In this document: piece by piece, positions 35,141-36,517 of the stretch | How the letters are laid out: every line of letters begins with the position of its first letter | How positions within the stretch are numbered: the stretch's first letter is position 1 | Assembly (NCBI RefSeq): GCF_007004735.1 | Contig: NZ_SSNL01000004.1 | Span: 372,001 to 436,000 of the forward strand | DNA: 64,000 nt | Source of the DNA: Salinigranum halophilum | GTDB taxonomy: Archaea; Halobacteriota; Halobacteria; Halobacteriales; Haloferacaceae | Reading direction: 5' to 3' | Made by a program: the position numbers and the translations under genes | Notes under the pieces: generated by a model | What the model saw: only the letters and a program-made list of their open reading frames with translations | Told to the model about the DNA's origin: nothing | The model's database searches: none

Positions 35141-35257
35141 CTATCCGGCGCCGGCACCGTGTGCGAGGGCGGCCGCGGTCCACCAGTTCATGAAGCCGTT
35201 GCGGCGGGTGGTCGTCGAGTCGGTACGGGTCTGGGTCTGGGACTTGATCTGGTTCAT
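35141..35257 (-). CDS. Putative 38-residue peptide ORF
   Basis: ATG at 35257 to TAG at 35141, encoding MNQIKSQTQTRTDSTTTRRN followed by a hydrophobic GFMNWWTAAALAHGAGAG end. The hydrophilic, Thr/Gln-rich N-terminal half and small-residue-rich C-terminal half recall a precursor peptide (leader plus core), but no modification enzyme is encoded nearby. A TTTTATC element ~48 nt upstream could be its promoter. It is not recognised as a family member and may be chance. Confidence 0.4.
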   Translation of the reverse strand: MNQIKSQTQTRTDSTTTRRNGFMNWWTAAALAHGAGAG

Positions 35258-35348
35258 CGTAATCCTCGTCTGAACGGATGCCGCTGGAGGAGATAAAACT
35301 TATCAATTTTCTTAACAATAGCTGTTGTAACAGACGTCTCATCCAGTC

Positions 35349-35430
35349 ATAGTGTTTGTTGTGACTGTTTGCCGCTGGTTCGTCGTCCCGTTCCGGCGAA
35401 CCAGCGGCATTGACTCACAACAAACACTAT
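35349..35430. repeat. Nested 82-nt inverted repeat (MITE-like or structured RNA)
   Basis: Outer arms ATAGTGTTTGTTGTGA (35349-35364) and TCACAACAAACACTAT (35415-35430) are perfect 16-bp inverted copies. Inner arms GCCGCTGGTTCG (35371-35382) and CGAACCAGCGGC (35397-35408) are perfect 12-bp copies. The two 6-nt gaps are symmetric in position, and a 14-nt loop remains. It begins 7 bp after the trmB stop codon. No clear target-site duplication flanks it. Interpretation: tiny non-autonomous transposon (terminal inverted repeats), or a strong terminator/structured RNA. Confidence 0.85.
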
Positions 35431-35437
35431 CAGCACG

Positions 35438-36517
35438 TCAATCCCGTTCGATGCGTTCGACGACGACCCAGTCCGCGCTCACGTCCTCGGCGAGTGCGTT
35501 CTCGCCACCGACGGTCACCGTGCCGTGTTCGGTGTCGAGGATGAGCGTCGCCTGTGCGGCCAGTTGGACGAGAGAAGGGGCGTCGGTTCCGTCGCCATCG
35601 CCGTCGTGACCGACGTAATCGACGTCGACGACGGTGCCGGAGACGCTTCGGTGTCGTCCGGTCTGGACGCTGTACCCCTCGACGCGGACGTGGACCGTAG
35701 CGCCGTCGTGGACGAGTGTTTCGAGGTAGCGGACGGCGTCGGTTATCGTGACGAACGGAATCGGCGGGGTATCCTGTGGGTCGGCGTGGACCGGTTCGTA
35801 CACCTCCCAGCAACTGGTGAGGAAGAACCAGTGGAAGACGAACGCCGTCGCGCGGTCGTCGACGAGGACGCCGTACTCGTCTATCGACCGGCCCTTCGGG
35901 GAGAAACTCACGCGCTGGCGGTCGGTGAGGACGAGAAACGGTTTCGGGAAACTGAGCCGACGCACCTCGGTACAGACGCCCTCGAACGCCTCGGCGGCGG
36001 GGACGGTTTCGTCAGCGGGAGCGTACAACGACACCTGGACGTAGACGCCGCGGTCGTACGCCGATTCGAGCACGTCACGCATCTCTCGGTACTGGTCGAC
36101 CGAGACCACGGCCTGGACGTGTCGCTCGGCCCGCTCGATGTCGCGCACTGCCTGTCCGAAGACCGTGTCGAACTGCGTGACGAGCGTGACGTCGCTCTCG
36201 CGGGCCGCGGGCGTTCGATACCGGTCTTCGATTTCGTCGAGCGCGGATTCGAGTCGGGTGAGTCGCTCGCGGAGCGGTCGGAGTTCGCTTGGCTCGACCG
36301 CCTCCGCGTAGAGGCGGTCCTGTTCGTACGTCGTGACGTAGCCTGCCGCTTCGAGGTCGCGGAGGACGTCGTAGATGCGTGGACGAGGGACGCCACTCGT
36401 CTCGGCGAGGTCGCCGGCCGACACTGACCCGGCCGAGAGCAGCGTGACGTACGCCTCCGCCTGGTACGGTGAGAGCCCCGCCTCTTCGAGTATCGCGGTG
36501 AGTTCGTCGCGCTCCAT
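35438..36517 (-). CDS. TrmB-family transcriptional regulator
   Basis: 359 residues. N-terminal winged helix 'LSPYQAEAYVTLLSAGSVSAGDLAETSGVPRPRIYDVLRDLEAAGYV', a coiled-coil-like 'LRERLTRLESALDEIEDRY', and the C-terminal TrmB effector domain ('FPKPFLVLTDRQRVSFSPKGRS', 'PFVTITDAVRYLETLVHDGATVHVRVEGY'), which in relatives binds sugars. It controls transcription, with target and ligand unknown; the alcohol dehydrogenase nearby is a candidate but is not co-oriented. Confidence 0.93.
   Translation of the reverse strand: MERDELTAILEEAGLSPYQAEAYVTLLSAGSVSAGDLAETSGVPRPRIYDVLRDLEAAGYVTTYEQDRLYAEAVEPSELRPLRERLTRLESALDEIEDRYRTPAARESDVTLVTQFDTVFGQAVRDIERAERHVQAVVSVDQYREMRDVLESAYDRGVYVQVSLYAPADETVPAAEAFEGVCTEVRRLSFPKPFLVLTDRQRVSFSPKGRSIDEYGVLVDDRATAFVFHWFFLTSCWEVYEPVHADPQDTPPIPFVTITDAVRYLETLVHDGATVHVRVEGYSVQTGRHRSVSGTVVDVDYVGHDGDGDGTDAPSLVQLAAQATLILDTEHGTVTVGGENALAEDVSADWVVVERIERD

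Follow-up and report, generated by a model that had tools for sequence, protein, structure and literature searches.

An 80-bp palindrome behind a trmB-type gene of Salinigranum halophilum is very probably a MITE-like element of a family widespread in haloarchaea and often inserted at stop codons

The described elements closest to the one reported here are those of Haloquadratum walsbyi. Its HqIRS MITEs are short (mostly <500 bp, up to ~520 bp) and multi-copy, are bounded by terminal inverted repeats and a target duplication, and sometimes occur in a genome without an intact parent transposase (PMC3119063). The SMRs are small (SMR-A ~110 bp), reach 54 copies per genome and have terminal inverted repeats unrelated to known transposons, but make no target duplication, and SMR-A enters the palindromes of PATEs and IS605-type elements (PMC3119063). 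IS200/IS605-type transposons and their derivatives have neither terminal inverted repeats nor a target duplication (PMC3119063). The present element shares with the HqIRS MITEs the small size, the repeats, the duplication, the copy number and a parent transposase that was not found in the families and stretches searched, but it is a near-complete palindrome of 80 bp whose ends match no transposon found, it duplicates a 3-bp TSA and it occurs order-wide. It resembles the SMRs in size and in its unrelated ends, but it duplicates 3 bp and targets a GACTSAGTC-like site, often a stop codon. By the Haloquadratum scheme, in which MITEs have a duplication and transposon-shared ends and SMRs have unrelated ends and no duplication (PMC3119063), it is between the two classes. 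A bacterial element is also alike as a dispersed short hairpin with a terminator-like structure (PMC10969869); the likeness concerns the described structure, and no mention of stop-codon restoration was found in that account.

We analysed a 64,000-nucleotide stretch of the S. halophilum genome (the window; contig NZ_SSNL01000004.1, positions 372,001 to 436,000). A sequence-only reading had described a doubly nested palindrome of 82 nt at 35349-35430, with perfect arms of 16 bp outside and 12 bp inside and gaps of 6 nt, whose edge lies 7 nt from the stop codon of a trmB gene. Both descriptions were confirmed: the gaps are symmetric, the centre comprises 14 nt (35383-35396), and the gene product belongs to the TrmB family by PF11495 and PF01978. 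The folding energy was -52.5 kcal/mol compared to -19.9 ± 3.1 kcal/mol for shuffled sequences (0 of 200 shuffles as stable; z = -10.4). The palindrome stood as drawn, while the edge of the element had been placed one base off, its true core being the 80 bp at 35350-35429. Because of this offset, the target duplication had been missed: a direct TCA repeat is present at 35347-35349 and 35430-35432. Including the duplication, the element is separated from the stop codon of the TrmB-type regulator by 5 nt and does not lie in that stop. The features of the locus are as follows.

35141-35257, minus strand: conserved small open reading frame of 38 aa downstream of the element; the frame is visible in L021 and L022, and its upstream region anchors the empty-site comparison.
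35347-35349, no strand: target-site duplication TCA, left copy (sequence; same layout at 96 of 138 sites; empty/filled comparison).
35350-35429, no strand: core of the mobile palindromic element, 80 bp (sequence; occupied versus empty orthologous site; model R3).
35349-35364, plus strand: left outer arm, a perfect 16-bp terminal inverted repeat whose base 1 belongs to the duplication (sequence; arm covariation).
35365-35370, plus strand: asymmetric internal loop, left half CTGTTT (conserved mismatches in 39 non-redundant copies).
35371-35382, plus strand: left inner arm, perfect, 12 bp (sequence; pairing across copies).
35397-35408, minus strand: right inner arm, perfect, 12 bp (sequence; pairing across copies).
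35409-35414, plus strand: asymmetric internal loop, right half ATTGAC (conserved mismatches in the same 39 copies).
35415-35430, minus strand: right outer arm, a perfect 16-bp terminal inverted repeat whose final base belongs to the duplication (sequence; arm covariation).
35430-35432, no strand: target-site duplication TCA, right copy (sequence; empty/filled comparison; 138-site set).
35438-36517, minus strand: TrmB-family transcriptional regulator whose 3' end adjoins the element (PF11495, E 6e-41; PF01978; orthologues in G002 at 85% and in G003 at 79% identity).

The results indicate, with a probability of about 0.93, that the palindrome is a non-autonomous MITE-like transposable element of 80 bp, built of two ~40-bp inverted ends placed head to head. 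The trmB orthologues of two same-genus genomes, G002 and G003, carry no palindrome at their 3' ends, and the site is thus empty in both. The spacing from AGACGTCTC to the trmB stop is 14 nt in these genomes, and the window, once the core and one TCA are subtracted, also gives 14 nt. This places the core at 35350-35429 and identifies the TCA triplets on either side as its target duplication. A second and closer empty site was found in G076, which is contiguous at the position of a G079 insertion (GGGGTCAGAG versus GGGCTCA-[80]-TCAGAG, the flanks sharing exactly 3 bases). The 38-aa frame of the window (MNQIKSQTQTRTDSTTTRRNGFMNWWTAAALAHGAGAG) has no Pfam match, and versions of it, together with a conserved AT-rich upstream stretch, come after trmB in two same-genus relatives (L021, L022).

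The palindrome might instead be a transcription terminator or mRNA 3'-end stabiliser of trmB, kept in place for that function. Its hairpin is very stable, and the wider family is concentrated at gene 3' ends and, in G269, densest between convergent genes (23 sites in 31.6 kb of convergent intergenic sequence versus 10 sites in 45.1 kb of divergent). In living Haloferax volcanii cells, 59% of transcripts were terminated by a hairpin (PMC7237163). However, a terminator specific to this locus should be conserved in place, and G002 and G003 lack the element at the 3' ends of their trmB orthologues; family members stand at unrelated genes, and neither strand has a T tract, which is the main termination signal of haloarchaea, directly after the palindrome. 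We consider this explanation very unlikely, although the mobile element may also act as a terminator or a stable RNA as a secondary effect.

We then assessed the copy number and spread of the MITE-like element. The exact arm has no further perfect copy in its own genome, and this search alone suggested uniqueness, which was corrected because a structural model found a diverged second member at G000:C3:502219-502300, where the preceding gene has the duplicated TGA as its stop codon. The sequence-only reading had named uniqueness in the genome together with conservation in place as a sign of a terminator; the arm is indeed unique, but the element is not, and its position is empty in the two relatives. 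A DNA search of the genus revealed palindromes of ~80 bp and ~75% identity at other, unrelated loci in G001 and G002. A covariance model built from 4 copies (R1) matched 43 of 170 genomes of the family, and the improved model (R3), run across the order, had matches in 190 of 392 genomes, which belong to 56 of 96 genera; R3 scores the window copy, one of its own training sequences, at 100.6 bits. Against Rfam, nothing exceeded the gathering score (MIR862, 27.9 versus 100 bits; P18, 23 versus 60 bits; both sub-threshold).

The copies reach high numbers in some genomes. G269 contains ~208 copies (416 terminal-repeat matches; reversed-pattern controls 0 and 1) and G079 ~65 copies (131 matches; control 0). 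Carriers among plasmids include Haloplanus, Halomicrobium, Natronomonas, Natrinema, Natrialba, Natronorubrum and Natronococcus. Identical copies occupy differing sites, several in G079 and seven in G269, and movement has therefore been recent. The copies are short and lack a transposase gene (104 of 138 are exactly 82 nt, counting one duplication base per end), and terminal inverted repeats, a target-site duplication and dispersed copies with polymorphic occupancy are all present. The earlier idea of a smallest-class MITE thus held, given 80-bp relatives at unrelated loci, a trmB site empty in two relatives and a target duplication. In G079, the copy of L079 is near-identical to those of L080-L087 except that the centre is exactly inverted between them (CGCCGAGACGGTCCGGCG versus CGCCGGACCGTCTCGGCG) with the ends unflipped, which suggests arm-mediated flipping of the hairpin centre.

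The duplication recurs across the family. An exact 3-bp duplication was present at 96 of the 138 sites of the first set (92 TSA, 4 TAA). Its middle base was identical at 124 of these 138 sites and complementary at 3, indicating that the triplet is directly repeated and does not belong to the palindrome. Loci fetched later gave the exact duplication in 19 of 20 cases, as did most loci of another batch. The net gain of 83 bp per insertion is certain; the duplication could formally be 1-3 bp long, because the T and A flanking the variable base are nearly constant. The consensus target is near the palindrome GACTSAGTC. A target profile was trained on non-stop insertions from other genomes and applied to G269, where 0 of 1698 low-scoring and 19 of 202 high-scoring non-coding TSA sites were occupied.

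To quantify insertion at stop codons, we located the duplicated triplet relative to the genes. In the first set, it lay exactly on an in-frame stop codon at 67 of 138 sites, nearly always TGA (TAA at 2) and often preceded by GAC. Since the excess in that set had an element-centred background, the count was redone on an unbiased 800-kb stretch of G269, and the estimate fell: among 67 independent sites, 22 were on a stop codon, 43 elsewhere in intergenic sequence and 2 within genes. Gene calls for these counts came from a codon-usage heuristic, except in two cases with published annotation, the archease of Natrinema thermotolerans and the FAD-dependent oxidoreductase of Natrialba magadii, both of which end on the duplicated triplet. 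With the target score in the model, the odds ratio for stop codons was 3.2 (95% 1.7-6.0) versus other non-coding sites and 2.06 (1.02-5.3) versus other 3'-side sites. When the test in the G269 stretch was limited to CTSAG sites no more than 60 nt downstream of a stop, the excess was not significant (p = 0.15). The stop-codon habit is thus explained mostly by the target sequence and by the fact that insertions of this kind do no harm, leaving at most a modest residual.

This residual bears on a further proposal, which adds to the mobile origin: stop-codon copies may have been retained by selection as terminators or 3' stabilisers. A hairpin directly after a stop codon could, as a hypothesis, terminate transcription or protect the 3' end, stop codons are over-represented beyond the target score by the odds ratios above, and base pairing is kept through compensatory change. 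However, the residual preference is modest and could reflect safe-harbour selection, through harm to genes or promoters elsewhere, or sites missed by the gene caller. The element lies in either orientation to the gene (39 to 28), and pairing of the arms could also be maintained by template switching or because a transposase recognises both ends. We therefore regard retention by selection as doubtful.

Both helices covary, with two-sided changes in 25 of 30 pairs and a score of 0.427 compared to 0.164 ± 0.011 in shuffles, and the signal was lost when the pairing partners were slid. In the inner helix, 91.7% of cells were paired and the sequence varied among lineages. Such covariation may arise from recognition of both ends or from template-switch repair, and is by itself no proof of RNA function. 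The mismatches C17-C66, G19-G64 and T20-T63 of the asymmetric loop were conserved across 39 non-redundant copies, so that the two ends of the element can be told apart. The persistence of this loop speaks against simple palindrome correction as the full explanation.

A conserved asymmetric loop in a hairpin recalls structure-recognised ends, and would fit a REP-like element whose single-stranded hairpins are moved by an HUH (Y1) transposase. REP elements and the IS200/IS605-derived PATEs have neither terminal inverted repeats nor a duplication, whereas the present family has both at many loci, which makes this origin highly improbable.

Tandem arrays of 2 or 3 elements were found at 8 of the 67 sites of G269, with a spacing of mostly exactly 83 bp (80 + 3), which is what a renewed hit on the regenerated triplet would give. 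Examples with mostly this spacing lie at L300 2407-2649, L285 11275-11439, L298 14233-14395 and L310 18221-18384, and some element ends in G269 are located inside other elements. Neighbouring copies at L288 14696-14860 differ strongly in G+C (0.52 versus 0.70), and the arrays therefore seem to be assembled from copies of unlike age or lineage.

We searched for a transposase that could move the MITE-like element. It had been suggested to check whether copies flank transposase genes, and this was not borne out: the families and stretches searched yielded no transposase whose ends match. In six genomes, the PF01609 loci had ends different from those of the 80-bp element, and the multi-copy elements of this family that were compared were rejected as its source, their ends being of the kind GAGGGTGTCA, GGCTCTGTTGAA or CATYCGTC. 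PF13359 was not detected in the MITE-rich genus of 12 genomes, which is probably Haloplanus, going by a plasmid match. All terminal-repeat matches examined in G079 belonged to 80-bp-class elements, and no convincing element of greater length emerged when 800 kb of G269 were scanned with an end profile. In G269, a 274-aa IS-type transposase gene (L287 19064-19888; identical protein in L318) lies between two copies ~1.3 kb apart; it was rejected as a source, as it is close to other PF01609 transposases and its ends seem to be its own, judged from no more than a weak 12-bp inverted match. On plasmids of Salinibaculum and Halostella, a half-match considered as an autonomous end was a short, divergent element that occupies a stop codon. 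Pattern matches on viral contigs look like chance, because no second end was found at the right spacing, and a phage collection gave no match to the element.

The IS1031 group of the IS5 family makes a 3-bp TNA target duplication. By analogy, this likeness may serve as a lead for the transposase; no end similarity with the group was shown, and no such transposase was found in the genomes searched.

We propose that a transposase acting in trans would recognise the two slightly different ends and place the element in a palindrome-like target close to GACTSAGTC; the resulting 3-bp TSA duplication, with a net gain of 83 bp, is observed. The duplicated triplet is often TGA after a codon ending in C (mostly GAC), so that many insertions fall exactly on a stop codon. 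As the duplication restores the TGA, the gene remains intact and now ends in a strong hairpin. Re-insertion at the regenerated triplet would give the tandem arrays spaced by 83 bp. In the window, the element entered a TCA located 5 nt after the stop of the TrmB-type regulator, between this gene and the conserved 38-aa frame.

A bolder and rather unlikely extension is that these are pan-haloarchaeal "stop-codon MITEs", moved by an unrecognised kind of transposase, which seed mobile terminators or mRNA 3'-end signals genome-wide while the stop codon is rebuilt. A search of full-text literature, with few subscription papers covered, returned no account of a stop-codon-restoring MITE or of the present family, and no description of a haloarchaeal short mobile element that is so widespread. 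About half of the order's sampled genomes carry the family, one of them with ~208 copies. The target choice of the element offers a transposable element a simple route for entering genes harmlessly, by landing on the stop codon and duplicating it. For annotation, the family would account for many unexplained palindromes at gene ends.
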